A DNA stretch of 64,000 bases. Origin: Myxococcales bacterium (lineage in GTDB: Bacteria > Myxococcota_A > Polyangia > Polyangiales > Houyiibacteriaceae). Within the stretch, counting starts at the first letter, position 1, and every line of letters begins with the position of its first letter. The stretch is from assembly GCA_019637115.1 (NCBI GenBank), contig JAHBWH010000002.1, forward strand, positions 1-64,000, in the 5' to 3' direction. The notes under the pieces were generated by a model that was not told the origin of the DNA, made no database searches, and saw nothing but the letters and a program-made list of their open reading frames with translations. Positions 24,219-59,893 of this stretch are shown piece after piece. Position numbers and translations under genes: made by a program.

Positions 24219-24358
24219 CTCGCGCTCTCCCTTGGGCGATCGATCCTGGGTGTCGTCCACCCACGTCGCACCCTCCGTTCGATTCAGTCCTGTCGAACCG
24301 CGCCTCCCCACCTTGCGGGGCATCCGCGACGCGCTACGCATTGTGCTACTCAAGATGC

Positions 24359-42544: not shown

Positions 42545-45142
42545 TCAGCGCGGCGGCGAGAGAAAGCGCACCCCGGGCGCCACGATCGGCGTCGGGCTCT
42601 GGTGGGTCGAGGGGCCGAGGCCGGCGCTCCCGCCGATCGGCGTAGCCCCAGCGCAGCTCACCTCACCGCCAGCGTGGAGCGCGCAGCAGAAGTTCCAGCC
42701 ACAGCCGACGTCGACGATGGGTCCGAGCGCCGAGTCTCGCTGGTAACGCGCGGCCCGCGTCAGGTCGACGGGCTCGGCGCTCCCGCTCCCGCTCTGGCCG
42801 AGGTCGTTCGCTCCCCAGCAGCGCGCCCCTCCGCCCCGAACGACGGCGCAGATCGAGTCGGTCGCGTCTCCGAGCGCGACGGCGTCCCGCACGCCGCGGA
42901 CGGCGACGGGCTGGTGGGCGTCGTGCTCGCGGCCCATCGCGCCGTCCCCGATCTGCCCGTCCTCGTTGCTCCCCCAGCACACGACCCCGCCTGCTCGGCG
43001 CAGCGCGCAGAAGGTCAGCTTCCCGCCGGCGAGGGCGACGGCGTCGCGGAGGCCGACGACCTCGACGGGAGACGCCGACCCGCGCATCTGCCCCGCGCCG
43101 AGCTGGCCGCGGGAGCCGCGGCCCCAACACCGCACGTGGCCGCTGCGCAGTAGCGCGCAAGCCGCGTCCACCCCCACGCGCACGTCGGCCACGTCATCCA
43201 GCCCGGCCACCCGCGCGGGGCGCGGCTCGGGCTCGCCACGCCCGCGCTCGAGCGGGGCCCCGAGCTCGTCGCCGACGCAGCTCGAGCCTCCGTCAGCGTG
43301 GACCGCGCACAGCACCATTGCGTTCGCGGGCCCCCCGACGCTGATCGAGACGGCCGGGTCGAGCCCCTCGACTGGCACCGGCGCGCTCGACTCGAGGCGC
43401 GCGCCGAGCTGGCCCCAGCAGACGACGCCTCCCCCGCGCCGGAGCGCGCAGGCCCGCCCGAGCCCCACGGCCACCTGCACCGCGTCCGTCAGCCCCACCA
43501 CCTCGCGCGCCGAGTCGCTCGCGTTCGCGCGCGTCGAGCCCGTCCCGAGCCGCCCCCCCGCCCCATCGCCAAAGCAGAGCACTCGGCCATCACCCCGGAC
43601 CCCGCAGACCTCGCTGCTCCCGACCGCGAACCCTCGAACCACGCCCCTCCGGTGTTCCACCTCGGACTCGGATTCGGACTCGGATTCGGACTCGGATTCG
43701 GACTCGGATTCGGACTCGGATTCGGACTCGGAAGCGGACGCGGAACCGGACGCGGAACCGGACGCGGAACCGGACGCGGAACCGGACGCGGATTCGGACG
43801 CGGAACCGGACGCGGATTCCGACGCGGATTCGGACGCGGATTCGGACGCGGATTCGGACACGGAACCCGACGCGGATTCGGAATCGGAACGAGACACCAG
43901 GTCGAAGACCACCGCCGCGACCTTCAACGCGGCGCCCGATCCGTTCCCCATCCGCCCATACGTCGCCGCCCCCCAACAGCGGAGCCGCCCTTCCCCCTCG
44001 ACGACGCAGGCGTGGTCGCGCCCCGTCGCCAGGAAGGACGCGCCGTCAACCTCGCGAACCTCGGTCGGCGCCGTCACGTGACCCTCTCGGGAACCGACCC
44101 CGAGCAGCTCGGCCGTGAAGTTGTTGTAGCCCCAGCACCTCACCTCACCGCCCTCGAGGCGCGCGCAAGTGCGCTGGAGCGCGAGCGCGAGCTGCGCGAC
44201 TCGCTGGCCAGCGAGCGCCGGGACGAACGTCGGACTCGTCGAGCGCTCCCGGCTCCCCGACGAGCCATCGCCGAGCTGCCCCGCGTCGTTGGCCCCCCAG
44301 CACATCAACCCCGCCGCGAGCGCCGCGCACGAGTGGTTGCCGCCAGCGCCGATCGTCGTCACGCCCGAGAGCCGCTCGACCGGCGTCGCGACGTGCACCT
44401 CGCGCGGCGCCTCCGCGCCCAGCCCGAGCTGCCCCGCGCCGTTCGCGCCCCAGCACGCGACGTCCCCGCCAGCGCGGCGCGCGCAAGCGTGCGCGCGCCC
44501 GAGCGCGAGCTGCACCACGCCCGAGAGCCCCGCCACCTCTACGGGCGCGACGCGATCCTCGCTCGAGCCGTCCCCGAGCGCGCCGCTCGTGCCCGCGCCC
44601 CAGCAGCGTACGCCTCCCGAGCTCAGCCGCGCGCACGTGAACGCCCCGCCCGCCGCGACCTCGACGACCTGCGCGAGCTCGACCCGCGTCGGCGCGTGCA
44701 CCACCTCGGTGTGCCCGGCGCCGAGCTGCCCGCGGTGGTTCCTCCCCCAGCAGACGAGCTCGCCCCTCCGCCGCAGCGCGCACGAGTGCCCGTCACCGCA
44801 GGCGATCGCCTCGGCGTCTTCGAGGCCGACGACCGGCGTCCACCCCCACCGGCTCTGGCTCGTCCCATCTCCGAGCTCGCCGTCGAGGTTCCGTCCCGCG
44901 CAGAGCACGCGCCCGGAGGGCGCGAGCGCGCATGTGTGCTCCGCCCCCGCGCAGACCTGCGCCCGAGGTTGCGTCGCGGGCGCGGGTGTCGGGTCCGACG
45001 CCCCTCCTCCACACGTCCCGCCGCACCCAACCACCAACGCGACGACGATGCTCCAGCCGGCGAACGGTCGTCCCTCCACGCTGCGCAGCGAACGCCGTCG
45101 CGAGCGCGCAGAGGACTCGAGAGCATCGCGGCGCGTCGCCAT
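42545..45142 (-). CDS. RCC1-repeat lipoprotein with two propellers and a Ser/Glu linker
   Basis: An 865-residue predicted lipoprotein with a long basic N-region and a lipobox ending VVGC. It holds about 14 RCC1-type repeats (units such as [23 protein letters not shown]), seven before and about seven after a linker of some 80 residues (residues 415-494). This suggests two seven-bladed beta-propellers. The linker is almost only Ser, Glu, Ala and Gly in SE/SA dipeptides and is encoded by hexamer repeats. RCC1-like proteins in myxobacteria are abundant and mostly uncharacterised; a surface or ligand-binding role is inferred. Cysteines in each blade may form disulfides. A -10-like TATGAT is 6 nt before the start, and a perfect hairpin lies just upstream. 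Confidence 0.85.
43661..43897 (-). repeat. Hexamer repeats encoding the Ser/Glu linker
   Basis: Dozens of copies of GGATTC/GGACTC and GGACGC-type hexamers (on the + strand) remain in frame and encode the SESE and SASG runs of the RCC1 protein. The composition belongs to the same GGACGCGGA word family as the non-coding arrays at 124, 1151 and 3431. Confidence 0.9.
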
Positions 45143-45148
45143 GCGCCG

Positions 45149-45154
45149 ATCATA
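45149..45154 (-). promoter_or_regulatory. Putative -10 element of a near-leaderless promoter (RCC1 gene)
   Basis: Read leftward, TATGAT ends 6 nt before the ATG at 45142 and starts 2 nt after the base of a 13-bp hairpin. Confidence 0.45.
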
Positions 45155-45156
45155 GT

Positions 45157-45186
45157 GCAGGCCGACCACTTTCGTGGTCGGCCTGC
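45157..45186 (-). terminator. Perfect 13-bp hairpin between the lipoprotein operon and the RCC1 gene
   Basis: GCAGGCCGACCAC and GTGGTCGGCCTGC pair without mismatch around the 4-nt loop TTTC, about 110 nt after the stop of the upstream leftward gene. No U tract follows; instead the apparent -10 box of the RCC1 gene does. It may end the operon transcript or regulate the RCC1 promoter. Confidence 0.65.
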
Positions 45187-45294: not shown

Positions 45295-47496
45295 TCACTC
45301 CAACACCGGCCGTTCTGGCTCAGCGGGAATGACGAAGAACACTCGACGCACGTCGAGGATCGAGCCATCGCCACGCACGACGATCCTGGCGACGTAGACG
45401 AGCGGCCGGTCGGCCCGTGGTTGGACGAAGTCGTTTTGCCGCGCGACGACGTCCCAACAGACCGGGGTCCCGGGCAACAACCGCGGGAAGGCATCCGGGA
45501 ACCCGTCGCCGTTCGTGTCCGCGACGCCTCGAACGGCGCTGCACTCGCCCTCACCGCTGACGTTCACTTCGATGCGATCGATGAAGAGGCGGGAGTCGCC
45601 ATCGTCGCCCGGCAGATCCTCGGCATCCACGTTCACGAAGAGGGGGACGTTGTCGACGATCTCTCGGATCGCACGGGTGACCGCGCTCGTGACCGCGTCC
45701 TCGGTGCCTTCGACGTAGAGCGGGTTACCCAGGCCGTCGAAGCTATTCGACAAGCGCGCGACCTCCTGGAGGTCCGCGGCGGGGCTGTTCCGTGAGTCGG
45801 CGTCGACGCCCACGAAGGTGATCTCTCGATCACGCAGCCGCGTCGCCGCGGCTGCAGCCGTGTTGACGGCGCAGCTGGTGCATTGGTTGTCCTCGTCCGT
45901 GATCGCGATGAGCACACGCCGCGCGTCGCTGCGATAGGAGGGGCACCCGACGCCTCCTGGCGTGCACTCCGCACCCACGCATGCGGTCGGATCGGCCACG
46001 CATGCGATGCTCTCGAAGAGCGACTCGAGCGCCCCTCCACCCGTCGCGCGGTCCGGGATCCTGCGCTGCGTCGCGAGCGGGTCGCTCTGCAGGGAGAGTA
46101 GGTTGCGGTAGCTGTTGGGGTTGCCCTCGTAGGTCCCGATGCCCGTCCACAAGCTCGCGATGCAACCAGTCTCGCGGGGATCGGCGATGCAGCGGCCGCT
46201 CGCGCTGCAGACCTGGCCCCCGGCACACTCGGGATCGCCGAGGCAAGGTGTCCCGAAGTCTCGACAGGTGAGGTTCTCGAGCACGCTCGTCACGGCGGAC
46301 TTCATCGCCGCGATTTCACCGGCCATCGACCCCGTCGTGTCCATCAGGAAATAGACGTCGGCGAATTGAATGTTCGTGCGGAAGAGCAAGGTGTCGCGGA
46401 GAGGAGTCGGCGGCTCGACGTATGGAATGACGAACACGAAGTCGCCGCGCGTGCGCGGGCTGTCGTCGGGATCGAGCGGGTCGGCACCGGCGGCGATCTC
46501 GATGAGGTCGGAGACACCGTCGCCGTCCGTATCCGCCGCGCGAGGGTTCGTGCCCAGCTCGCGCTCGAGCGCGTCCGGCACACCGTCGTTGTCACTATCG
46601 AGGTCGCGAAAATCGGGGATCCCGTCGCCGTCGGTGTCAACGGGCGGAGTCCAGATGTCGGTGTCGCCTGCCTCCTCGGCGTCGGAGTAGCCATCGCCGT
46701 CCGTGTCGAGGTCCTTCCAATCCGGCACACCATCCCCGTCGGTGTCGGGCGCCTCGCCAAAGCGTGGACGCTCGTCCCCGTCGAGGATGGTGTCTCCGTC
46801 GGAGTCCGGATCGCGAAAGTCCGGCACGCCGTCGTCGTCCGCATCCGCGGGAAAGTCGACACGTCCGTCGAGTTCCGTCACGTCCGCGACGCGGTCACCA
46901 TCGTCGTCCAGATCGGCGTGGTTCGGGATCCCATCGCCGTCCGCGTCACCCATCCCTTCACGAGCGTCCGGGATGCCGTTTCCGTCGCTGTCGAGGTCGC
47001 GGAAGTCCGGGATCCCATCGCCGTCACTGTCGACGGGCGGCGTCGAGAGGTCGTCGTCTCCTGCCTCGAACGCGTCCGGAAGACCGTCCCCGTCGCTGTC
47101 GAGGTCGAGGTAGTCCGGGACACCGTCCCCATCGGTGTCCATCCGTGTGTCGGCACCCTCGTCGAGGTCGCTGATCCCGTCGCCGTCGGAGTCGATCTCC
47201 GACGACGCGTCGAAGCGGACGGCGCCATCGCCCCGCGCGTCGCCATCGCCGCACGCCGCGACGCTCAGCGTCAGCGCGAGCAGGGTCGCCAAGCGACGAG
47301 GCCTCTGGGTCCGCGCGGGAGGGATCAGCGTCTCACGCTCCCGTCGCTCTCCCGCGGCCCCATCGGTCGTGGTGGGCGTGGGGTCATCCGGCCGTGGAGG
47401 CTCGATCGCATCCGAGTCTCGCGGCTTCGGCGCCATAGGTCGCTCCACGTGAGCCGAGGGGACGTGAGGCGTGTCGAAGGTAGGACGGTCGGTCAT
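45295..47496 (-). CDS. Lipoprotein with thrombospondin-type-3 calcium repeats and a VWA-like domain
   Basis: A 733-residue protein. A long charged N-region leads to a lipobox ending VAAC (about residue 82). It is followed by some 14 D(S/T/A)DGDG(I/V)xD motifs (residues 95-330), the calcium-binding design of thrombospondin type 3 repeats. After this a von Willebrand A-type domain starts with [12 protein letters not shown] (a MIDAS-like DxTGS), includes a cysteine-rich insertion, [11 protein letters not shown] and ITFVGVDAD. The mix suggests a calcium-stiffened stalk presenting a metal-dependent adhesion head. It is the last gene of a four-gene operon; AGCAGGATC precedes its ATG, 8 nt after the previous stop. 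Confidence 0.85.
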
Positions 47497-47504
47497 GATC
47501 CTGC

Positions 47505-49718
47505 TCACGGTTCTGCGAAATAGGCGGTCAGCGCGAAGGTCCCGGGCGCCACTGCCGGGCTCTCGAGCACGATGAGGTGGCTGCCCGCGTCGAGGGTGCG
47601 GTTGAGGAGCGCGGAGCCTCCCGACGCGCAGCGGAAGGGCTCGGGCGCAGGCGAGGTGCACGTGCCAGGTCGCAGCCCGAGCGCCATCGGCTCCGTCTCA
47701 CCGTCGGTGCGCCGCGCCACCAAGGTCACGTTGCGACGCTCGGCGAGCTCGAGCCGGAAGAACAGATCGTGGGCGTCCGCGGGTCCGCACGCCAACGCCT
47801 GATCGCTCGCGCCGAGGAAGGTCCCCCGAACCTCCATCCCGTCGTCGATCAGGATCGCCGCATCGCAGCGATCATTCGAGGGAGGAACCGTGGGGGGCTC
47901 GGTCCGCGCGCTGATGACGAGGTCGCCCGACGAGAGCGCCGTCGACACGGTGACGAAATGACGACCCGGTGGCGCGCGGAGGATCCGTCGCGTCACGGTG
48001 GGGGTACCGCTCGCGCAGAGGGTCTCCGTGGCCGCGTTGCCGCACGAAGACGAGACCGCGACGTAGTGAATACCGCCGACGGTCGACTCGAGGATGATGT
48101 CGCGCTCCTCGGCCAACACGATCTCGAAGCTCGCGTCCCTGAACGTGGAGCCGTTGCCGCCGCAGCTCGTGCCGTAGTCGAGCTCGAGGCTCGAGAGTGG
48201 CACGGTCACGGTGGCGTCCGTGATGTCGAGGACCGAGCCGCAGGCATCCGCCGGGTTGCGCGGCATCGCGTCCACGACGCTCGCCTGAAGCTCCCAGCTC
48301 ACGGCCGTCGTCGACGCCGACTCGATGAGCACGTAGTAGGTCCCAGGCTCGAGCGCGCGACGCTGAATCTGCGCGTCCTGCGCCTGTACGCACGCCAGCG
48401 ACGTCGCGGGGCTCGAGCAATCGCGAACGAGCGTGAGGAACGTCGACGGCCGCGTCGACGAGGTGCTTCGCGTCGAGGCTCGCAGGACCACGTCCTTCGG
48501 CTCGGTGATCGTGAGCCGATACGCGACGTCGCGCCGCACTTGAGTCGCGCTGGACGCTCGACAGGCGATCTCGTACTGGTCCGTTACGTCGACGAAGAGC
48601 CCGGTGAACGTCCCGCCGGCGGAGATGTCCAACGTGTCGCTCGTGCACACGTCGACCGGCTGAACGGGTGTCGGCGCCGCGTAGACGAGGCTCAACACGT
48701 AGGTCGCGGCGGTGCTCGTCTTGACCATCACGACGTACTCGCCGGGTGGCAAGTCGCGGGCGGTGACCGATGACGTCGCGCCGCCGCCGGCACAATAGCC
48801 GTCGGGCCCGCTGCCGCTGCACTCGACGGCGGGGCGGATCGCCACCGCCCCGTTGCCGCCCCCCTCGACTTCGACGACCGCCTGCACGTCCTGCCGCTCC
48901 GTGAGCGTGAAGCCGAACACCGCGTCGAGCCCCGTCGGACGGCAACCGAGGACGTAGTCGTTGCGAAGACCGCGGGTCGTTCGCACCCAACTCCCTGGAC
49001 CAGGGAGCACCTCGCGGGACTCACAGTCGTCGTTCACGCCCGAACAGGTCGGATCGCGGTAGTCGACCAACCGGTTGCAATTGTCGTCGATGCCATTGTC
49101 ACAGACCTCAGGCGCGCCGGGGTAGATAGACCCGCCAATGACCGGGTCGTCGTTGCAGTCGAGGCCGCCGCAGCGATCGTCTGCGAAGCCGTCGCCATCG
49201 AGGTCTCGCAACTCGAACGAGCAGCCCTCGGACGAATCGCATCTCCCGACGGTGCAGGCGTCCCCGTCGTTACAGAGGAGCCGGGGCCCGGGCCGACAGC
49301 CGAGCCCCAACGCACAGACCTCCGCGCCGTTGCAGAGATCCCCGTCGTCGCAGCTCTCGTCGGAGGCCTCGAAGACACAGCGCCCCGCGCTCTCGTCGCA
49401 GTCGTCCGACGTGCACTCGATCCCATCGTCACAGGGGTCCGCGCCCGCCACGCAGACACCGTCGGCGCACGTCTCTACGCCGTTGCAAATGCAGCCATCG
49501 CTGCACTCTGCCGATGACGCGCACGCCCGACCGATCGTCTCGCCAGGCTCCGCGCACGTGCTCGAGGCGCCACCGTCTCCAGCGTCGGGGGTGAGGGCGT
49601 CTGACGGTTCGGCGTCCACCGGGACGCGCGGGTCGTCGTCCCCGCAGCCCGCCGTCGAAATGAGGGCCACGATCAGCACCGCACCCCATGGGGTCGAGAG
49701 TCGTCTTCCACTCATCAC
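47505..49718 (-). CDS. Lipoprotein with Cys-rich/MopE-like N-terminus and four PPC-like beta domains
   Basis: A 737-residue predicted lipoprotein with a lipobox ending STAGC. Residues 40-250 are cysteine-rich, with [19 protein letters not shown]-like units and one MopE-type motif [14 protein letters not shown]. Then come four similar domains of about 110-120 residues, each with a central LTERxDV / LAEERDI strand and an LxPGxYxV turn, reminiscent of PPC (pre-peptidase C-terminal) sandwiches. No catalytic domain is present. It begins 1 nt after the stop of the preceding gene with GTG, or at the adjacent ATG, so it is clearly in an operon. A surface-binding role is inferred. Confidence 0.8.
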
Positions 49719-49719
49719 G

Positions 49720-52700
49720 TCACTCCAGTCGCAACCACACGCCGGTGGCCGAGGTCGCAGGTGGGGAGGAGTCGATCAGATACAAGGCCGGCACCGAAGG
49801 ATCGAGCGCCATGCTCAGGTCCGTGTTCACGCGACCTCCGGCGTAGATCGGTCCGACGACGCGCGGCGTTCCGCCGGGGTCGACGATCGCGTAAACGTGG
49901 GTCGGCGCATAGCCGCGGAAGTACAGGACGGACGGCGCGCCTGGCACGGTCGACCGTTGGAGGACGAGCGTCGCGTTGTTGGTACTGAGCCTCAAACCCG
50001 CGATGGGCAGCGCTTCGGGCGTCGCCGTGGGGTCGACCAGGCGGTCGAGCCGCACGCGGTACAAAGCGGACTCAGCCGCCGTCGTCGCGCCGCGGGCGAC
50101 GTACAACCACTCGTCGTCCGCCGCGATCGCGGAGGCTCCGAGGATGGTGTCGTTGCCCCCGAGCTCGACCGCAGAGCCGCCGGCCGCCGGCACCGAGAAC
50201 ACGCGGAGCGGCGCGGTGGTGCTCCGCTGCGTGGCCACGAGGAAGCGTGACCCATCGAACGCGAGCGCGCCGAGCGCCGACGCGGGCCACGTAGACCCTA
50301 CGTCCCACGCGACGGGGTCGAGCGGCCCGCCGTTGCTGACCCGGAAGAGCCGATTCGGGAGCGAGCTCGAGGAGGCCAGCACGAAGATCTGCTCGGCGAT
50401 GGCGAGACCGTCGTCTCCCGCGATGGAGAGCGTCGCACCGCCATCGACGAAGCTCAGCATCTCCTCCGTGAGCGGGCCGCCGTCGCGCTCGAACGAGGTC
50501 ATGAGCGCGCTGCGCGCATGGATGACCCGCGTCGGCGTGACCGCGGTCCATCGGGTCCCCGAGCTGCTGCTGCGAGGCTCCGAGAGCTCGTTCACCACGC
50601 GCCCAGTGACACCGACATAGGGAATCGTCTCGATGTCGAGCGCCGTGACGCCGAGCCCGGAGGCGACCGCCACACAGATCTGCTCGCCTGGTTGCGTGAA
50701 GAACGCGACCCCATCCACGGCGGTCGCGCCGCACGCGAGCTCAGCGTCCACATCCACCGAGCGCGCCGCCAGCGCGCCAGCGCCATTCCCTCGGACGGCC
50801 GCCAGCCGCTCGGTGGCGGTGAACCGGTACCAGGTCACCGCGGAGGTTCCGAAGCAGCTCGGCGTCCCGATGCGTTGCGTCCCGGTGGGTGTGACGGGAA
50901 CCGAGAGGCCCGGGCCGATGGGAATCGCGGTCGCACACGAATCACCGGGACCCGGCTCGACCTCACGCGCGCGCACCCGAACGTCGGGCCGAAACGGAGA
51001 CGTGAAACGCGGCGCACTCGAGGCGTCGTTCTCCGCGACCCAGACGAAGCGCATCCCTGCAGCGCCCTCGAGATCGTATCGATGGGTGCCCTGTCCTGGA
51101 CCGGCGCATTGAAGCACCGACGCCCCTCGCGGCTCGCACGAATCCAGGATCTCGACGAGCGCATCGTACGCCGCGACCTCGACCTCGACCTGCAGCACGC
51201 TGGTCGCGGAGGTCTTCTCTAGGGCGACGACCACGTCGGCCCCGTGGATACCGTTCGGGTCACACGAGAATGCTCCCGTGTCGCCTGGGAAGATGGTGCG
51301 CTCGTGGCTGCTGATCCCGTCGACCGGGATGTGCCATTCGTGCCACGCACCGGCACTCATCGGGGCCGAGTAGAAGCGACTCCCACCGACGACGAGCGGG
51401 CGCGCACAGGACTCCCCCTCGGGCATCTCGGGGATCTCCTCGATCTCAACGGTGGCACCGGCGAAGGTCGATCCGGTCGCGGACGACACCCACACGAAGT
51501 ATTCGCCGGCGTCGCCATCGACGAAGAGCTCGTGCGCCGTCCGCTCGTGCGGGCACCGGAGCTGCGCCATTCCGGCCGCCGGCGCCCGCGGGTCGCAAAC
51601 CTCTCGGTAGACATCGACGTTGATCCGGGTCGACGTCGCGCTCGTCGCGCGGATGGCGAGGACGCTGGTCGCGGACGACTTGCGGTATCGGATCACGGCG
51701 TCGGGCGACGTGCCGTTCGTGTCGCACGGCGCGCTACCGTCGACGACGCTCACCTGCCCGCTCGCGATCACCCAGCGACGTGCGGCGCCAACGGCGCTGG
51801 ACCCCGCGAGATCCAGCGCGTCCTGGCAATCCTCACCCCGCGGAGCGACCATCCCCAGCTCCAGGAATCCGTCACCGAGGTAGGGATGGGCAGCGTCGAG
51901 CGTCGCACCGCCCGCGTCGCGAAATCCCCGAAGATCGACGCGATACGTCTGCCCCGCCAACAGGGAGGTCCCGACGTCGAAGCTCAGCCACGTGCCCGCG
52001 CTCGACCACGTCCCCTCGGCCTCGAAGGTCGAGAGGTCGCTGACGAACGTCGCCCGGGTCCGCGTCGTGTCCATGGCCTCGCTGAACGCGACGACGACCC
52101 GTCGGGTCGAGAGGGCGACCTCGGTCGAACGATGCTCCGGGTTCGTCGCAACCACGAAGGGGCGGAAGAGATCCACGCCCGCCGTGAAATCGATGGCGCC
52201 GTCCCCGAGGTAGACCGCGTCGTCGAGCGGGTTGCCCTCGAGGTCCACGAATCCGCGGAGCGCGAAGCGATAAGCCGCTCCCGTGCTCAGCGCGCGCTGG
52301 ACACGAAACGCCGCGCGCGTTCCACCACGTGACCAGGCCGGAACGAGGGCGTCGACGAGCACGTCGTCACCCTCGCTCAGCGTGCCGACCCCGAGCGCGG
52401 GATCCATCGGCTCGGAGAAGTCGACGGTCACGAGCTCGAGCGCCGTGGGCACGTCGAGCTGTCCTTCAGAGGGATTCGAATCCACCACGAACGGAGGCGT
52501 CCGATCCGGCCCCGTGGAGAAATCGACCGCCCCGTCGAGCAGATAGGGCTCACCGTCCAGCGGGTTGCCGGACGTGTCCTCGAAGCCGATCAGCGCGAGG
52601 GAGTAGGCCGTGTCGTGGACGAGGCCCGACACGGGGACGCGCACCGCCTCGGTCTCCCAAACGAGCGCGCCGACCTCGCCATCGCCGCCCAACAATGCGA

Positions 52701-53394
52701 CCTCGCCGAGCGTGGCCATCGGCTTGGAGAAGACCACCCGCACCTCGGCGAGGTCGGTCGCCACATCCCGAGCGCCTTCGGTCGGCGTCGAGGCGACGAC
52801 GATCGGCACCTCGGGGTCCAGCGTCGAAAACGTGAACTCGAAGTCCTCGGCGGTCTCCCCTTCCCAGCCTCGGAACGCGCGAACCTCGACCCGGACGTCC
52901 GTCGCCACGGGGAGCTCAGGCGCCGGATATCTCAGCACGGTGGACCCTTCCGCCCACTCGCGCGCTCCGAGCACGATGGGCGTCGTCCCGGTGAAGGCCC
53001 TCACCTCGCCGTGACGCTCGTCCATGGGTCGGGAGAAGAAGAGGACCACCGGTCGATCGCTCGCGACGCGTCCCTCACCGGCTGCCGGGTCGGTCCCGAC
53101 GACGCGAGGCGCCCCCTCGCCCGCGTCGTTCGAGGCGTCGTCGCGGGGACCACCGTCGGAGCGGCGTCGTTCGTCGTCGCCGCAGCCGACGACGAGCAGC
53201 AGGCCAACCAAGGCGAGCATGGGGGGCACCATCGACCGGGCTCGTGGATGACGAGACCGCCCCGCGGCCGCTCCGATGAGTCGGAGCGCCGCCGCGCCCT
53301 CGCCGGGCAGCGAGGCGGGTGTCGCGGGGGGCGGGGCCGAAGCCCCTCGTTCCGTCGGGCGTTGCGCAGAGTTGGTCATGAGAGGCTCAGGCAT
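49720..53394 (-). CDS. Large lipoprotein with SbsA-like Ig (Big_5) repeats, PPC-like domains and a C-terminal propeller-like region
   Basis: A 1224-residue protein paralogous to its upstream neighbour. A lipobox (LLVVGC near residue 71) follows an unusually long basic N-region. About four Big_5/SbsA-type Ig repeats come next, each with the signature NPxxGxxDV...VTVDFSEPMD and LxGFxDxxGNPLD. PPC-like domains with paired Cys (CDTNGTSPDAVIRYRKSSATS) follow, then a C-terminal region of repeated strands such as VFSVPAAGGSAVELGGND and WLYVARGA that suggests a beta-propeller. No enzyme motif is seen. The start could be 53394 or 53379; it lies 7 nt after the upstream stop. Confidence 0.8.
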   Translation of the reverse strand: MPEPLMTNSAQRPTERGASAPPPATPASLPGEGAAALRLIGAAAGRSRHPRARSMVPPMLALVGLLLVVGCGDDERRRSDGGPRDDASNDAGEGAPRVVGTDPAAGEGRVASDRPVVLFFSRPMDERHGEVRAFTGTTPIVLGAREWAEGSTVLRYPAPELPVATDVRVEVRAFRGWEGETAEDFEFTFSTLDPEVPIVVASTPTEGARDVATDLAEVRVVFSKPMATLGEVALLGGDGEVGALVWETEAVRVPVSGLVHDTAYSLALIGFEDTSGNPLDGEPYLLDGAVDFSTGPDRTPPFVVDSNPSEGQLDVPTALELVTVDFSEPMDPALGVGTLSEGDDVLVDALVPAWSRGGTRAAFRVQRALSTGAAYRFALRGFVDLEGNPLDDAVYLGDGAIDFTAGVDLFRPFVVATNPEHRSTEVALSTRRVVVAFSEAMDTTRTRATFVSDLSTFEAEGTWSSAGTWLSFDVGTSLLAGQTYRVDLRGFRDAGGATLDAAHPYLGDGFLELGMVAPRGEDCQDALDLAGSSAVGAARRWVIASGQVSVVDGSAPCDTNGTSPDAVIRYRKSSATSVLAIRATSATSTRINVDVYREVCDPRAPAAGMAQLRCPHERTAHELFVDGDAGEYFVWVSSATGSTFAGATVEIEEIPEMPEGESCARPLVVGGSRFYSAPMSAGAWHEWHIPVDGISSHERTIFPGDTGAFSCDPNGIHGADVVVALEKTSATSVLQVEVEVAAYDALVEILDSCEPRGASVLQCAGPGQGTHRYDLEGAAGMRFVWVAENDASSAPRFTSPFRPDVRVRAREVEPGPGDSCATAIPIGPGLSVPVTPTGTQRIGTPSCFGTSAVTWYRFTATERLAAVRGNGAGALAARSVDVDAELACGATAVDGVAFFTQPGEQICVAVASGLGVTALDIETIPYVGVTGRVVNELSEPRSSSSGTRWTAVTPTRVIHARSALMTSFERDGGPLTEEMLSFVDGGATLSIAGDDGLAIAEQIFVLASSSSLPNRLFRVSNGGPLDPVAWDVGSTWPASALGALAFDGSRFLVATQRSTTAPLRVFSVPAAGGSAVELGGNDTILGASAIAADDEWLYVARGATTAAESALYRVRLDRLVDPTATPEALPIAGLRLSTNNATLVLQRSTVPGAPSVLYFRGYAPTHVYAIVDPGGTPRVVGPIYAGGRVNTDLSMALDPSVPALYLIDSSPPATSATGVWLRLE

Positions 53395-53401
53395 TCGGGG
53401 A

Positions 53402-56400
53402 TCAGTGCAAGCGGACCAAGGTACCCGTCGTCGTCGAGGCGCGCTCGAAGGCGACGAGCGCTGGGGTCGACGAGTCGAACGCCATCGTGACGTCGGCGCT
53501 CGCGCCGAGCTGACTCACGACGCCGAGGTAGCGCGGGGTCGGGGCCAGCTCGATGACGTGGACCTCGCCCGACACCCGGGTGTAGAGGTATCGATGGGTC
53601 GACGTCGTGTGGAGGAAGAGCTTGGCCTGAGCGGTGCTGTACGCGGCCGCGTGGACCAGCACCGGCTCGGCGAGCGGATCCCCGAGCGCGCCCCGCGCGA
53701 GCCGGTACACGCCGCGGACGCCATCGACCGTCCCCGCGACGTAGAGGTCGGTCCCATCGGCCGCCATCCCAGTCACGAGTCGGACACGATCGTTCGACCC
53801 GAGCGGGCGGCCCGCCCCAGGCGCCGCAGGATCGACGGCGAAGAAGCGCGTCGGCACCGTGCCGGCCGTCGTCGCGTACGTCGCGAGCACGAGCTCCACG
53901 CCGTCATCCGCCATCGCCCGCATGGCGCCAGCGGGATACGCATTCCCGGCGTCCCACGGCGCGACCAAGACGGCACCGGCAGCGGTCACCAGACGGAACA
54001 CGCGCGTCGCACCAGCCGTGGCGACATCGTCGAGGCTGAAGACCGCCTCCCCCCGCGTGACGCCGTCGTAGCCCATCTCGCTGCTCGTGATGCCGACCTC
54101 CGCCCCGAGCTGCTCGGCCTGCACGGGGCCGACGCGAGGTGAGCGGAGGAGGCTCGACGTGAGCCCCAAATAGAGTGTGCTCGGCGTCGCCGCGATCCAC
54201 CGATTCGCCGTCCACGCAACTGTCGTCCCGGTGCCCGATACGGCGCGCTCGATCTCGAGCGGCGTCTCACGACCGAGCACTCCTTCGTAGCCCGTCGGCT
54301 GGAGCGTGATCGCGGTGACGCCCGCGGCGCTCGGGACGGCAACGCAGACCTCGCTGCCGACGGGCGCGAAGATCGCGAAGGGTGCTCGCCCGTCACCAGC
54401 GCAAAGGCCTCCGTTCCCGTCGGAGATGGCGGCCACCGCGGCGGCGTCCGGCGCGGCGAGCGTCAAGTACGTCAGGCGCTCGGTCGCGAGGAAGCGGTAC
54501 CAGGTGATGCCATCGGTCGACGACAGGCACGAAGGTGCATCGAAACGCTCCGTGCTCGATGGCGCGATCGCCGTCGTCCCCTCGGCCGAGATTGGGATGG
54601 CGGTGCCGCAAGTCTCGCCGGGCTCGGTCACGACCTCTCGGACGCTCACGGTCGCGCCCTGGATCGCCCCGCTGGTGATCGCGGTGGAGATCCACAGGTA
54701 GTAGGTCCCCGCGGGCGCATCGGTTGTCAGCAAATACGGTCCGTCGGGCGCGCGAATGGAGTGGTCGCACTGCAACGATCCGACCCCCGGGGCGCGAGGA
54801 TCACAGCCGTCGAGGAGTTCGACGTTGACCTGGGTGGCGGTCGCGGTCGTGCCGACCAGGTCCACGCGCACTTCGAGCGTCGAGTCGCTCCGCGTCTTCA
54901 CGAGCTCGAAGACGCCGTCGGCCCCCGTGAGCCCGTCGGGATCGCACGCCATCGTGCCCGAGTCGCCCGAGCTCCGGCCACGATCGTACGACTCGAACGC
55001 ACGCGGACCAATCGTCCACGAGGCGTACTCGCGCGGCGCGGGCGCAGGCACGAAGCTCTCGCTCGACGTCGTCCACGGCCGAAGGCAGCTCGCTCCCTCA
55101 CGAGGTTCGGCGACCTCTTCCACCTCGAGCTGAACCGCGCCATGTAGCGCCCCAGTTCCAGCGCTCGACACCCACAGGAAGTAGTCGCCAGGGCCGACGT
55201 CGAGGTTGGCTTCCCACCGCGTGTTGTTCCACAAACAGCTCAGCGTCTCGGCCGCCAGATCCGTCGGTCGGCAGGCTCCTCCGAGGATCTCGAGGTTGAC
55301 CCCGCGCGAGCCGCCGTCCGCGGTCACGCGCAACATCGCCCCTCCGTCGCCACGCGCTGGCGAAGTCTTCCGATAGCGCACGACGACGTCCGAGCTCGTC
55401 CCGCTCGTCGCGCATCGGGCAGACCCGTCGTGCACCCGCCCCGTCCCGGCGCCGAGCGTCCAGCGCGTCCCCACCCCTGTCGACGACGGCACCCCGGCAG
55501 ACTCGTCGAGGACGTCGTTGCAACGCTCGCCTCCAGGGGCCGCCATCTCGAAGTCCAGGGCGCCATCACCCAGGTAGGGGTGATCGACCTCCAACGTGGT
55601 CCCCCCCAAATCCGCGAAGTGGGCGAGGTTCATCCGGATCGAGCGGCCCGAGTGGAGACGGTCCGAGACGTCGAGGCTCAGACGCGTCCCCGCCATCGAC
55701 CAGGCGCCCTGCACCTCGATCGGCGCGACGCCGTCGTCCAGCGTCACGGTCCGAAGGCTCGTGTCCATCGCCTCGCTGAAGACGAGCGTCACGACCGCTC
55801 GGTCGAACCGCACGTCGACCGCCCCTTCCAGCGGATCCGACAGGCCTACGAAGGGGGGGCGGAGGTCGCGGCCCGTCTCGAACCGAATGGCGCCATCGAT
55901 CACGAAGACCGAGGCGTCGAGTGGGTTACCAGCGAGGTCCACGAAACCATCGAGGTGGAGCGCGTACGCGGCGCCGTAGCCGAGACTTGCGGGCAACGCG
56001 AACGTCGCGAGCGTCCCGCCCTCGCTCCAAATCACCGAGAGCGCGACGTCATCCGAGCCGCTCCTCAACGTCGCGACGCCAGCGTTCGCCATCGGCTCGT
56101 CGAAGCGAACCTGAAGCGCCTCGAAACGTGCAGGGTCCACGTCCAACTGGCCTTGGTCCGGGTTCGCGTCCACCACGCGAGGTGGGTCACGGTCGGGGCC
56201 CGTGGTGAACGAGAGCCCGTCGCCTGCGAGCGCGCTCCCCGCGCGGTCCCTGAAGCCCTCGAGGAGGACCTCGTAGCTGGTCTCGTAGCGCAGGCCCGAC
56301 ATCGCCACGCGCGCGGTGACGGGGTCTAACCAGAGCGGGGCGCCGAACGTCAGCGCGCGACCCGCGTCCCGCACGGCGCCGACGGTGTGATTCATGGGCT

Positions 56401-56926
56401 TCGAGAAGCGCAGCTCGAGCGAGTCTACGCGCGCCGAGACATCCATCGCCCCATCGGCCGGCGAGGCGGCGATCAATACGGGCGGCGTTCGTGAGGTCGC
56501 GAACGACGTCCGAGTCGGCGCGAGCGCGCGCCCCGCGGCGGACTCGAAACCGACCAGCCGGACCTCCAGGGTGAGGCCCTCCGGCCATCCCGAGGCAGGC
56601 GCCGACACGCGCCACGAGGTCGATGAGGACCACTCCCCCTCGGGAAGCGCCAGCTCGCCATTCGGCGAGGTCACGACCACGCCGCCACCGGCCGCCATCG
56701 GCCCCGAGAAACGAAGCTCGATCGACGCGTCCAGCGCGACCTCCTCGGCCCCGTCCTCTGGGCTCACCGCGACGAGCTCGGGACGTGGCGTCAGGGCCCC
56801 GTCGTGTCCGACCGACGCGTCGGCTCCGGCGTCGTCGAGCACGACGCCGTCCGAGCCGCGACAAGCAGCGAGCAGCGCGCAGAGGCTCAGGCAAAGACGA
56901 AGAGCGACTCGATGGATGGATGCCAT
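53402..56926 (-). CDS. Large lipoprotein with SbsA-like Ig (Big_5) repeats, first gene of the surface operon
   Basis: A 1174-residue lipoprotein (lipobox LLAAC near residue 22) with the same domain order as the next gene: about five Big_5-like Ig repeats (for example ASPADGAMDVSARVDSLELRFSKPMN), PPC-like domains with conserved Cys, then strand repeats ending at FERASTTTGTLVRLH. The two proteins clearly arose by duplication and now differ strongly, which is consistent with distinct ligands. The ATG at 56926 is supported by GGGAGG just upstream; the longer frame adds nothing. It is divergent from the ECF sigma gene, with 186 bp between starts. Confidence 0.82.
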   Translation of the reverse strand: MASIHRVALRLCLSLCALLAACRGSDGVVLDDAGADASVGHDGALTPRPELVAVSPEDGAEEVALDASIELRFSGPMAAGGGVVVTSPNGELALPEGEWSSSTSWRVSAPASGWPEGLTLEVRLVGFESAAGRALAPTRTSFATSRTPPVLIAASPADGAMDVSARVDSLELRFSKPMNHTVGAVRDAGRALTFGAPLWLDPVTARVAMSGLRYETSYEVLLEGFRDRAGSALAGDGLSFTTGPDRDPPRVVDANPDQGQLDVDPARFEALQVRFDEPMANAGVATLRSGSDDVALSVIWSEGGTLATFALPASLGYGAAYALHLDGFVDLAGNPLDASVFVIDGAIRFETGRDLRPPFVGLSDPLEGAVDVRFDRAVVTLVFSEAMDTSLRTVTLDDGVAPIEVQGAWSMAGTRLSLDVSDRLHSGRSIRMNLAHFADLGGTTLEVDHPYLGDGALDFEMAAPGGERCNDVLDESAGVPSSTGVGTRWTLGAGTGRVHDGSARCATSGTSSDVVVRYRKTSPARGDGGAMLRVTADGGSRGVNLEILGGACRPTDLAAETLSCLWNNTRWEANLDVGPGDYFLWVSSAGTGALHGAVQLEVEEVAEPREGASCLRPWTTSSESFVPAPAPREYASWTIGPRAFESYDRGRSSGDSGTMACDPDGLTGADGVFELVKTRSDSTLEVRVDLVGTTATATQVNVELLDGCDPRAPGVGSLQCDHSIRAPDGPYLLTTDAPAGTYYLWISTAITSGAIQGATVSVREVVTEPGETCGTAIPISAEGTTAIAPSSTERFDAPSCLSSTDGITWYRFLATERLTYLTLAAPDAAAVAAISDGNGGLCAGDGRAPFAIFAPVGSEVCVAVPSAAGVTAITLQPTGYEGVLGRETPLEIERAVSGTGTTVAWTANRWIAATPSTLYLGLTSSLLRSPRVGPVQAEQLGAEVGITSSEMGYDGVTRGEAVFSLDDVATAGATRVFRLVTAAGAVLVAPWDAGNAYPAGAMRAMADDGVELVLATYATTAGTVPTRFFAVDPAAPGAGRPLGSNDRVRLVTGMAADGTDLYVAGTVDGVRGVYRLARGALGDPLAEPVLVHAAAYSTAQAKLFLHTTSTHRYLYTRVSGEVHVIELAPTPRYLGVVSQLGASADVTMAFDSSTPALVAFERASTTTGTLVRLH

Positions 56927-57112
56927 GGGGTTCTCGCCTCCCGTAGTGCGCATGGCCTCGAAACCGGCTCACGAATTCGACGCGCCTCGCACCATCTCTC
57001 GCAAGCATCCGAAAACAGTGAACATTGACGAGAGCGCTCGCCACACGCCGCCCGCTCCGTCGAATTGTTGAGCCGAAACAGAACGAGCGCGCACTACGAT
57101 GGGGAGTCGACC

Positions 57113-57721
57113 GTGAGCCATCAACGACCGACACTGCGCCTCTTGAGCGGGGGCAGAGAGACACCGCGCGCGCGAGCGGGCGCCGATGACGTTCCGACCG
57201 AGGCCGCAACCGCGCCCGCGCCGATCGACGTGCGGGACCGCGAGGCCGTGTTCCGGCGGTTCGCGCCCTACGTCGCCCGCATCGGCTTGCGGCTGCTCGG
57301 TCGGCACGACGAGGTGGACGACCTGATCCAGGACGTGTTCCTCGCGGCGCAAGCCGGGCTCGATGGTCTGCGAGAGCCGGAGGCCGTGAAGGGCTGGCTC
57401 GCGACGGTGACGGTGCGAAAGGCGAAGCGCCGCCTCGGTCGACGTCGTTTCCTGCGCACGCTTGGTCTCGATGGGAGCACGGATTACTCGGAGGTCGCGG
57501 ATCCCGCCGCCGACCCGACCACCCGCCGCACGCTCGCGGACGTCTATGCCGTCCTGGACCGGGTGCCGACCGAAGACCGCGTGGCGTGGTGCCTGCGATA
57601 CGTGGAAGGCGAACGTCTCGAAGAGGTCGCGCGCCTCTGCGGATGCTCTCTCGCCACGGTGAAGCGACGAATCGGCGCTGCGCACGGACGTATCCTCACG
57701 GAGCTCGATGCCGATGGATGA
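57113..57721 (+). CDS. ECF-type RNA polymerase sigma factor
   Basis: A 202-residue sigma-70-family protein. After a non-conserved N-terminus of about 45 residues, region 2 runs through FRRFAPYVARIGLRLLGRHDEVDDLIQDVFLAA (core binding and -10 recognition), and region 4 through VLDRVPTEDRVAWCLRYVEGERLEEVARLCGCSLATVKRRI (helix-turn-helix for -35 recognition). Region 3 is absent, as in ECF factors. GTG 57113 follows GGGGAG; a frame extending to 57065 adds a doubtful leader. It overlaps the FecR-domain gene by 14 nt, so the pair is co-translated. The likely target is its own divergent lipoprotein operon; this is inference. Confidence 0.92.
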   Translation: MSHQRPTLRLLSGGRETPRARAGADDVPTEAATAPAPIDVRDREAVFRRFAPYVARIGLRLLGRHDEVDDLIQDVFLAAQAGLDGLREPEAVKGWLATVTVRKAKRRLGRRRFLRTLGLDGSTDYSEVADPAADPTTRRTLADVYAVLDRVPTEDRVAWCLRYVEGERLEEVARLCGCSLATVKRRIGAAHGRILTELDADG

Positions 57722-58841
57722 GTTCTCCGATCGACTGAAGCGCGCCCGCCGCCACGTCGACGTCGCGATCGACGACGCGGCGCTCACCGTCGCGTGGGAC
57801 CGCCTGAAGGCCAGACAGCGCCGACGTGCCATCGGCCGAGGGGCAACCGGCTTCCTCGCGACGGCGGCGACCATCCTGCTGGCTTGGCGCCTCAGCTCAG
57901 TCGCCCCCGAGTCCGTCGCCGTCACGCCGGGTCCGACCGCGACCGCGCCCGACCTACGACTCCCGGACGGCTCCCGAGTGTATTTCTTGGGGTCGGACAC
58001 GGAGGTCGGCACCTCCGCGATCTCGAGCTCTCGCGTCGTGCTGACCTTGGCCGCGGGGAGCGCACGCTTCGAGGTGAGCTCGCGACCGGAGCGAACCTTC
58101 GAAGTGCTGGCAGCCGGAGTGTCCGTGCAGGTCGTGGGTACCACCTTCGATGTCCACCGCGTCGACGGGGCGAGCGTCGAGGTGGAGGTCTCGGAGGGCC
58201 GCGTGCGCGTTCGGAGCGTCGATGGTGAGTTCCTCCTCGGCCCGGGCGATCACGGCACGTTCTCGGGCCGCGAGGCGACGAACGACGAGGCTCCAGCATC
58301 GCCCGACGAGATGTCGCCTTCGGCGTCGCGGCCCCTCCCGGCGACGATGTCGAAGCGGCGCGCGACGAGGGAACGCGAGCCGACGCGCGACGCAGAGGAC
58401 TGGCGGGCGCTCGCGGCCGCAGGCAACTACGATGCAGCGTGGGCCGCGCTCGAACGCACGGACGATCTTCGCGCCGACGACGCCGGGGACCTTCTGCTCG
58501 CGGCCGACGCGGCGCGTCTGTCGGGCCACGCAGAGCGCGCCAAGTACCTGCTGCGGACCGTGCTCGAGTCACATCCCGACGACCCACGCGCCAGCCTCGC
58601 GGCGTTCACGTTGGGGCGAATGTTGCTGCGCGGCAGACCGAGGGAGGCCGCAGAGGCCTTCGCCGCGAGCCGTCGCCTGGACCCTGCCTCGGCGCTCTCT
58701 CAAGACGCGCTCGCGCGCGAGGTCGAAGCCTGGCACCACGCGGGAGAGGCGAGCCGAGCCCGAGAGGCGGCGATGGACTACGTCTCACGGTGGCCGACCG
58801 GCGCTCGGATCGAGGCGGTCCGTGCATGGGGCGGGCTATAA
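57708..58841 (+). CDS. FecR-domain transmembrane protein with TPR-like C-terminus (anti-sigma candidate)
   Basis: A 377-residue protein. A short cytoplasmic part (residues 1-42) and one transmembrane helix (TGFLATAATILLAWRL, about 46-61) precede a FecR domain (residues 80-185: LPDGSRVYFLGSDTEV ... VSVQVVGTTFDVHRV ... VEVSEGRVRVRS). After a Pro/Arg-rich spacer, residues 230-375 look like TPR helices (AALERTDDLRADDAGDLLLAADAARLSG and the following repeats). FecR proteins relay envelope signals to their ECF sigma partners. Overlaps on both sides (14 nt with sigma, 16 nt with the next gene) mark a tight operon. ATG 57714 is an alternative start. Confidence 0.88.
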   Translation: MPMDEFSDRLKRARRHVDVAIDDAALTVAWDRLKARQRRRAIGRGATGFLATAATILLAWRLSSVAPESVAVTPGPTATAPDLRLPDGSRVYFLGSDTEVGTSAISSSRVVLTLAAGSARFEVSSRPERTFEVLAAGVSVQVVGTTFDVHRVDGASVEVEVSEGRVRVRSVDGEFLLGPGDHGTFSGREATNDEAPASPDEMSPSASRPLPATMSKRRATREREPTRDAEDWRALAAAGNYDAAWAALERTDDLRADDAGDLLLAADAARLSGHAERAKYLLRTVLESHPDDPRASLAAFTLGRMLLRGRPREAAEAFAASRRLDPASALSQDALAREVEAWHHAGEASRAREAAMDYVSRWPTGARIEAVRAWGGL

Positions 58842-59893
58842 CGAGCGCGACGCCCTCGCTGGCCGCTAGACCCGCGACCCGAGCGGGCTTGCTCTGGCAC
58901 GTGCTCGCCGCGGTCAGCGGAGTCGCCGTCGGCCTCGCGAGCCCGGCCTCCAGCCAGGCGCCGGTCGAGCTCACGATCGACCCGTGCTTGGGCGTCGACG
59001 CCGAGGACGTCCGTCGCATCGTGAGCCTCGAGCTGGCGCTCGAGCTCGAAGCCGCGACCGTCCCCGAGGAGACCACGATGGCGCGCGCGCTGTGCGAAGA
59101 CGACGGCGCGCGGCTCGAGGTCGACGACCCGACGACCGGAAAGTCGAGCTCGCGGCGGGTCGTCTTTCAAGTGCTCGTCGGTGGAGGCCGAGCTCGCCTG
59201 CTCGCGCTCGCCCTCGCCGAGCTGATCGCTGCGAGCTGGGCCGAGCACCGCTTGACGCGCGCTTCCGCAGCACACGATCGGGACGCCACCGCCTCCACCC
59301 GGACACGCACACGTGTGGCCGAGATCGCGGCGAGGCGATTCGTGCTCCCGCCCCCGCGCACGCGCCCGGAGACCCCCGCCCACCGAGCGGCGCGCGGGCG
59401 GACGTTCCTCACCGCCGGTATCGGTGTCGCCGCCGCGCCCGCGCACCTCGTGGGGGGTGGCAGCTTCGAGCTTCTCTTCGACGCCGGCCCACGGCTCTCG
59501 CTCGGCACGAGCGTAGACCTGCTTCAAGGGCGAGCCCGCAGTGAGGCAGGCGCCGTCCTCGACCATCGGCTCGGCTTCTCGGGGCTCGCGACGCTGCGAC
59601 AGCCGGTGCGACGGTCCTGGATCTCCTTCGGTCTCGGTGGGCGCGTCGGGCGCGCGCTGCTGCGGGGAGCCGCCGCAGACGGAGGACGGTCGGTCGCCGC
59701 CCCCTTCGCAGGCGTGTACGCGGTGGGCCACGCTTGGCGGCAGATCGTTCGAGTCCTCCTCGTCGCACGGCTCGAGGTCGGACTGACGACCGCCGCCCTG
59801 CGAGGGCGCCTCGGGGACCTCGAGGGCCCGGTCGTCGCAGCCGTCGACGGGCCTTGGGGCAGCTTCTCGCTTGGCATTGGACTCACCCTCTGA
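58826..59893 (+). CDS. Exported, probable outer-membrane beta-barrel protein of the sigma/FecR operon
   Basis: A 355-residue protein without a family name I know. The N-terminus has a signal-like segment (GLLWHVLAAVSGVAVGLASPASSQA). Residues 50-200 look periplasmic (CLGVDAEDVRRIVSLELALEL), and residues 210-355 show alternating hydrophobic strands (FLTAGIGVAAAPAHLVGGGSFELLFD, then SLGTSVDLLQG and ISFGLGGRVGRALL), ending with GSFSLGIGLTL, which suits a small outer-membrane barrel. In many myxobacterial genomes such a gene follows an ECF/FecR pair. It may be the signal-sensing component. The start at 58826 overlaps the upstream gene by 16 nt. Confidence 0.72.
   Translation: MGRAITSATPSLAARPATRAGLLWHVLAAVSGVAVGLASPASSQAPVELTIDPCLGVDAEDVRRIVSLELALELEAATVPEETTMARALCEDDGARLEVDDPTTGKSSSRRVVFQVLVGGGRARLLALALAELIAASWAEHRLTRASAAHDRDATASTRTRTRVAEIAARRFVLPPPRTRPETPAHRAARGRTFLTAGIGVAAAPAHLVGGGSFELLFDAGPRLSLGTSVDLLQGRARSEAGAVLDHRLGFSGLATLRQPVRRSWISFGLGGRVGRALLRGAAADGGRSVAAPFAGVYAVGHAWRQIVRVLLVARLEVGLTTAALRGRLGDLEGPVVAAVDGPWGSFSLGIGLTL

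Follow-up and report, generated by a model that had tools for sequence, protein, structure and literature searches.

Divergent operons for an envelope regulator and for a set of lipoproteins raise the question of whether the one controls the other. Such a pair is present in a 64,000 nts stretch from a Myxococcales bacterium (assembly GCA_019637115.1, contig JAHBWH010000002.1, positions 1 to 64,000; hereafter the window), where three rightward genes encoding an extracytoplasmic function (ECF) sigma factor, a FecR-domain protein with TPRs (FecR-TPR) and a protein modelled as a small barrel are divergent from four leftward genes encoding predicted lipoproteins. An original prediction, made from the sequence, regarded these seven genes as one regulated system; the genes were confirmed at the positions it gave, and several start sites and domain labels were revised (Table 1). 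We consider it probable that the locus encodes a cell-envelope signalling circuit in which an autoregulated sigma factor, together with the FecR-TPR and barrel proteins, would control the divergent lipoprotein operon through two copies of one promoter.

The regulatory and lipoprotein operons recur together

Relatives were searched for in 183 genomes of the order, with the best candidates of each genome scored so that the counts given here are lower bounds, and in a phylum sample of 377 genomes. Close orthologs of the sigma factor were found at at least 8 loci in 5 genomes: one each in G000 (the genome of the window), G001 and G006, two in G043 and three in G181. These orthologs match at E<=3.4e-80, and the next match (4.7e-71, in G065) lacks such neighbours. 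FecR-TPR and barrel genes follow the sigma gene at 8/8 loci; the profiles used to recognise them drew on five of these loci, and the three of G181 are independent. All 8 loci, which belong to two families, also adjoin Big_5-type, MopE-type and TSP3-VWA genes. The two operons are divergent at five of them, and at the other three (the G043 locus near 7.22 Mb and two of the G181 loci) the genes all point one way. The recurrence of the seven-gene arrangement at 8 loci in 5 genomes is more than chance.

Both operons are preceded by the same promoter-like motif

Side-by-side reading of the intergenic regions of these loci identified a promoter-like motif, and in the window it lies on both sides of the region 56927-57112 in which a promoter had been expected. 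At 8/8 loci the sigma gene and the first gene of the lipoprotein set are each preceded by the form TGAGCC[G/A]-N15-17-CAC. In G000, G001 and G006 the motif reads TGAGCCG-N16-CACT[A/G]CG; the -10 part is ACACA[A/C][A/C] at one locus of G043 (G043b) and one of G181 (G181b), and CCACTT[A/C] at another (G181c). When both strands of the window were scanned, the loose form gave 2 matches, both at these promoters, and the reversed control gave 0. Perfect matches to the strict form TGAGCCR-N16-CACTRCG number 2 in the 8.9-Mb genome of the window (both at this locus), 4 in G001 and 3 in G006. The letters GTGAGCC also occur at the sigma start codons of the window, G043a and G181a.

The occurrence of the same rare promoter signal at both operons suggests that they probably form one self-reinforcing circuit. 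Combined, the co-conserved operons and the common motif support the regulation proposed in the original prediction. We propose that the FecR-TPR protein, located in the inner membrane, would hold the sigma factor as its anti-sigma factor or co-activator, that the barrel protein would report to FecR-TPR, through a periplasmic N-terminal domain, on the condition of the outer membrane or cell surface, and that the released sigma factor would read the motif TGAGCCG-N16-CACTACG and transcribe the operon that encodes it and also the divergent lipoprotein operon of four genes, whose products would be displayed on the surface. The analysis supplies two defined predicted promoters through which this scheme can be directly tested.

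A -35-like element is widespread and the -10-like part tends to match within loci

Sigma, FecR-TPR and barrel genes also occur with other neighbours, as at six loci from metagenome-assembled genomes (L061-L066), four of which have TGAGCC shortly before the sigma gene. Three paralogs of the sigma factor were examined in the genome of the window; TGAGCC stands shortly before the one on contig C33, and those on C391 and C13 lack it in this position. A larger set of 50 further sigma loci was drawn from the higher-ranking matches of the ortholog list; it includes ten loci fetched earlier, and some of its members are close relatives and not independent. TGAGCC[AG] was present within 380 nts upstream at 38/50 of these loci (reversed control, 4/50; background, 0.087 per 380 nts), although the sites of L267, L212 and L213 lie less than 25 nts from the start of the match and may be coding. 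Outside the order it was present at 6/7 sigma loci (reversed control, 1/7). FecR and barrel genes were recognised by the profiles at many, not all, of the wider sigma loci.

The -10 elements were then compared between TGAGCC sites that precede lipoprotein-like starts and sigma promoters, both those at the same locus and those elsewhere. The lipobox filter used for this comparison is strict and drops some sites, including the window's own. The 17 lipoprotein-upstream sites retained scored 5.82 matching bases out of 8 against the sigma promoter of the same locus, compared to 4.17 in the permuted sets (0/10,000 permutations). The agreement was 5.90 versus 4.19 for the 10 sites left without the 8 main loci, and 5.93 for the 14 sites retained by a stricter filter (0/10,000 permutations in both cases). 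Sites preceding lipoprotein genes were also commoner for TGAGCC (17/244) than for four control motifs (14/1526). Clear single cases of matching are L063, L066 and the C33 paralog, where a TGAGCC-N-TCACT element precedes both the sigma gene and a gene for a lipoprotein of 566 amino acids (L252, G000:C33, 454-5137).

These patterns allow a broader proposal, which we put forward tentatively as somewhat short of likely: one ECF subfamily may have given rise, in myxobacteria and their relatives, to many parallel, insulated and TonB-independent surface-signalling circuits with a common -35 element (TGAGCC[G/A]) and a private, locus-matched -10 element, each coupling a small barrel to its own set of lipoproteins. 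If true, a conserved -35 combined with a variable, locus-matched -10 would be the way in which one sigma subfamily is split into insulated circuits, and would offer a simple route to predicting which genes are controlled by each of many uncharacterised ECF factors.

On contig C391 of the same genome, a further set of sigma, FecR and barrel genes (L059, 7938-15261) adjoins MopE-repeat lipoprotein genes, one of which has TGAGCC upstream.

Properties of the three regulatory proteins

The sigma factor matches the Pfam families Sigma70_r2 (45.7 bits) and Sigma70_r4_2 (32.1 bits), and its neighbour matches FecR (PF04773, 49.8 bits for a cut-off of 24). The FecR-TPR protein has, by eye, a single N-proximal membrane helix, and its family profile matches TPR proteins as well as PDB entries 4m0n and 4m0h, annotated as 'putative anti-sigma factor'.

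The AlphaFold model of the third protein has a mean predicted local distance difference test score (pLDDT) of 65.9 and a predicted template modelling score of 0.39. Its N-terminal domain (residues ~51-140) is mostly modelled at pLDDT 82-93, and its C-terminal part contains seven long strands and one short strand, which we read as an 8-strand barrel; residues ~188-355 align with NspA, OpcA, OmpA and OmpW at Z 10.6-11.3, and Foldseek gave no barrel match at E<=0.001. The model supports an outer-membrane-type barrel whose ordered N-terminal domain is expected to lie in the periplasm. The fold alignments of the N-terminal domain returned hibernation-factor-like folds (Z 9.0 over 93 residues), an arrangement so common that no function follows from it. 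No Fec-type signalling domain (STN) was among the fold matches of the protein, although such lists do not exclude one. The role of sensor given to the barrel protein in the original prediction is plausible on this model.

The circuit and alternative explanations

A number of results weigh against the circuit, and three alternatives were considered. The most probable of these, although we judge it unlikely, is that neither FecR-TPR nor the barrel protein is a sensor: the latter would be one more regulated envelope protein, stabilised or scaffolded by FecR-TPR. The cytoplasmic part of FecR-TPR that precedes the membrane helix is, by eye, only ~40 residues long, which is short for an anti-sigma domain. 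The third protein had no Pfam match at E<=0.1, including the Fec signalling domain. Against this alternative, the sigma, FecR-TPR and barrel genes stay together not only at 8/8 loci of the close orthologs but also at loci with other neighbours.

A second and less probable alternative is that an unlinked transcription factor binds the TGAGCC...CAC element, or that another sigma factor uses it as a promoter, and that the local sigma factor regulates something else. The link between the motif and this sigma protein is predicted from sequence. Perfect copies also exist away from the cluster (G001:C437 and G006:C24), and a third perfect copy in G001 directly follows the TSP3-VWA gene and has no clear gene after it (L043, G001:C248:31226-31255). 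Other results weigh against the circuit in general. The pattern was derived from the same loci to which it is applied. When the 8 contexts were scanned with its loose form, 16 of the 23 matches fell at the promoters and 7 elsewhere, for 4 with the reversed control; two of the 7 precede further lipoprotein genes (G043a near 24351 and G181a near 8142). With one mismatch allowed, the strict motif gave 14, 15 and 14 matches in G000, G001 and G006 compared to 38, 41 and 54 for the control. The genome-wide search that had been suggested yielded two perfect matches, both at this locus, but no enrichment at one mismatch, and since the control outnumbers the motif there (38 versus 14 in G000), only perfect matches carry weight. 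In the wider family the motif is missing at 12/50 sigma loci, and the count falls to 37/50 without L213, whose sole site may be coding. In the -10 comparison, single-site scores span 3 to 8, so that not all 17 sites match, and loci from close relatives are non-independent. Nevertheless, the motif is spaced in the manner of an ECF promoter, it precedes 38/50 sigma loci of the same subfamily, and its -10 part varies from locus to locus and tends to match within a locus.

The remaining results concern lipoprotein operons found apart from the regulator. Separation of the two gene sets in relatives, named in the original prediction as the outcome that would speak against it, is seen in part: G003, G009 and G015, of the same family, carry the lipoproteins without a sigma gene beside them. 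The co-conservation of the two operons holds at 8/8 sigma loci but not at these lipoprotein loci. The lipoprotein contig of G003 is only 8.3 kb long, and the sigma matches of this genome are on other contigs, without lipoproteins. A relative of lipoprotein 1 is also encoded in six genomes of genus g76, with no sigma gene in the four contexts that were read (0/4), and in two genomes outside the order (G329 and G335), likewise with no sigma match. The motif was not found close to the start of the sigma-less operons of G009 (211 nts upstream), G015 (280 nts upstream) and four g76 loci (300 nts upstream), nor upstream on the contig of G003; G009 does have a TGAGCC site 233 nts upstream of its operon despite having no adjacent sigma gene. 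It follows that the lipoproteins are not strictly dependent on this regulator. Nevertheless, a chance neighbourhood without any functional link, to which these relatives with lipoproteins alone would lend some support, is very improbable given that 8/8 sigma orthologs are adjacent to the lipoprotein genes, in two families and two gene orders and with matched promoters.

The distribution of the components was also compared by profile. The part of lipoproteins 1 and 2 that follows the Big_5 domains (profile A7) was detected at E<=1e-150 in at least 14 genomes of the order (six belonging to the window's family, the six of g76, plus G043 and G181 from a different family) and at E<=1e-10 in at least 25. 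In the phylum sample, A7 matched in 12 genomes (E<=1e-40) and the sigma profile in 15 (E<=1e-55). The MopE-type family is far wider (147/183 genomes at E<=1e-15) and is therefore not specific to this system. Scanning genome contigs with the sequence of lipoprotein 1 confirmed no relative.

Comparison with known signalling systems

The locus resembles the Fec system (FecI-FecR-FecA) in encoding, side by side, an ECF sigma factor, a membrane protein with a FecR domain and a predicted outer-membrane barrel whose N-terminal domain would be periplasmic. It differs in its third protein, which is a predicted small barrel of 355 residues and not a 22-strand TonB-dependent receptor with a plug, in the lack of a plug or STN match at the locus, in the TPRs carried by its FecR protein, and in its neighbours, which are lipoproteins and not an iron transporter. 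Moreover, the sigma operon looks autoregulated, whereas fecIR is under sigma70 control (PMC9249621). No match to a TonB-dependent receptor family was found by Pfam among the other proteins of the locus. As this receptor is a defining feature, we do not file the locus as a Fec-type member; by analogy, it is best read as related to Fec-type signalling at the cell surface but independent of TonB. If this is true, FecR/ECF signalling does not depend on TonB receptors, and in Myxococcota surface lipoproteins would be controlled through a small barrel of the outer membrane.

A non-standard third component has a precedent in the PUMA3 (Vre) system of Pseudomonas aeruginosa, which combines an ECF sigma factor and a FecR-like regulator with a component that departs from the standard form, and which is used for more than the uptake of iron (PMC2729926). 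The two differ in that VreA has an FpvA-like signalling domain and no barrel, whereas the small barrel predicted here carries an N-terminal domain of another kind. The TSP3 repeats of lipoprotein 4 recall CglD and MtsC of Myxococcus, but its NCBIfam scores are below the cut-offs of both families (29.4 for a cut-off of 400 for CglD, NF033765, and 29 for 350 for MtsC). In the open-licence full-text literature, we found no paper on this arrangement, which is no proof that none exists, and in open-licence literature none on FecR/ECF in Sandaracinus or Sorangium.

Domains of the lipoproteins

A hydrophobic stretch and a lipobox cysteine were seen by eye near the N-terminus of 4/4 lipoproteins, and these proteins are predicted to be displayed on the surface. 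Lipoproteins 1 and 2, described at the outset as duplicated Big_5/PPC/propeller proteins, are paralogs with clear Big_5 domains (90.4 and 108.1 bits, cut-off 23.6), but neither has a PPC match in Pfam at E<=0.1. The C-terminus of lipoprotein 1 was modelled at a mean pLDDT of 51, and its top Foldseek matches are propellers, none at E<=0.001. The PPC and MopE-like parts assigned to lipoprotein 3 were both scored and both fall below the Pfam cut-offs (MopE, PF11617, 25.8 bits for 27; PPC, 18.1 for 25.9). The description of lipoprotein 4 as a TSP3-VWA protein stands for TSP3 (TSP3_bac, 35.2 bits, cut-off 25, with 10 DxDxDGxxD matches); VWA is at its cut-off (23.8 bits for 23.8) and partial, the best stretch covering positions 1-32 of 174, and the motif D-[TK]-TGSM is present in the VWA-like region of 7/7 aligned relatives. 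Searches of PDB sequences with profiles of lipoproteins 1 and 2 and of lipoprotein 4 found nothing. The suggestion that these proteins may form a calcium-dependent adhesion or matrix system was drawn from domain names only.

Gene layout and flanking genes

Table 1. Positions in the window of the genes and promoter-like motifs of the locus
Feature	Position	Strand	Basis
ECF sigma factor (regions 2 and 4), GTG start	57113..57721	+	Pfam; start from homolog alignment and motif position
FecR-domain protein with TPRs, proposed anti-sigma factor or relay	57708..58841	+	Pfam PF04773; family profile
Small outer-membrane protein, predicted barrel, 355 residues	58826..59893	+	AlphaFold model, fold alignments
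Lipoprotein 1 (P0001): Big_5 domains, then Cys-containing part and all-beta C-terminus	53402..56926	-	Pfam, homologs
Lipoprotein 2 (P0002), paralog of lipoprotein 1 (40% identical)	49720..53394	-	Pfam, homologs
Lipoprotein 3 (P0003): Cys-rich repeats, MopE-like motif, PPC-like part	47505..49718	-	Pfam scores below cut-off
Lipoprotein 4 (P0004): TSP3 repeats and VWA-like region; start uncertain	45295..47496	-	Pfam, motifs
Promoter-like motif TGAGCCG-N16-CACTACG before sigma gene	57069..57098	+	Intergenic comparison, pattern scan
Promoter-like motif TGAGCCG-N16-CACTACG before lipoprotein operon	56942..56971	-	Intergenic comparison, pattern scan

The alternative sigma start at 57065 is merely that of the longest open reading frame and lies 4 nts ahead of the promoter motif. 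The sigma and FecR frames overlap by 14 nts, and the likely start of the barrel protein is the ATG at 58826, not 58439. For lipoprotein 1, an ATG at 56953 sits upstream of the predicted -10 and 56926 was taken as the start. The ATG at 53232 is the more likely lipoprotein start of lipoprotein 2, and its use enlarges the gap to lipoprotein 1 from 7 to 169 nts. The start of lipoprotein 4 is uncertain because its lipobox cysteine is residue 82.

The RCC1 lipoprotein gene that follows (P0008), mentioned in the original prediction, is near the cluster at only 1/7 other loci (G006) and was rejected as a member, as was the ThiC gene P0009, likewise near it in G006 only (1/7). In the RCC1-repeat lipoprotein (42545-45169), two RCC1 regions flank a long SES repeat rich in Ser and Glu. 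Just beyond the end of the window (L251, G000:C112:62000-81000), two more MopE-type genes lie near genes that by eye are ftsX/ftsE-like, and a similar MopE-type pair lies near ftsX/ftsE-like genes in G034 (L256).

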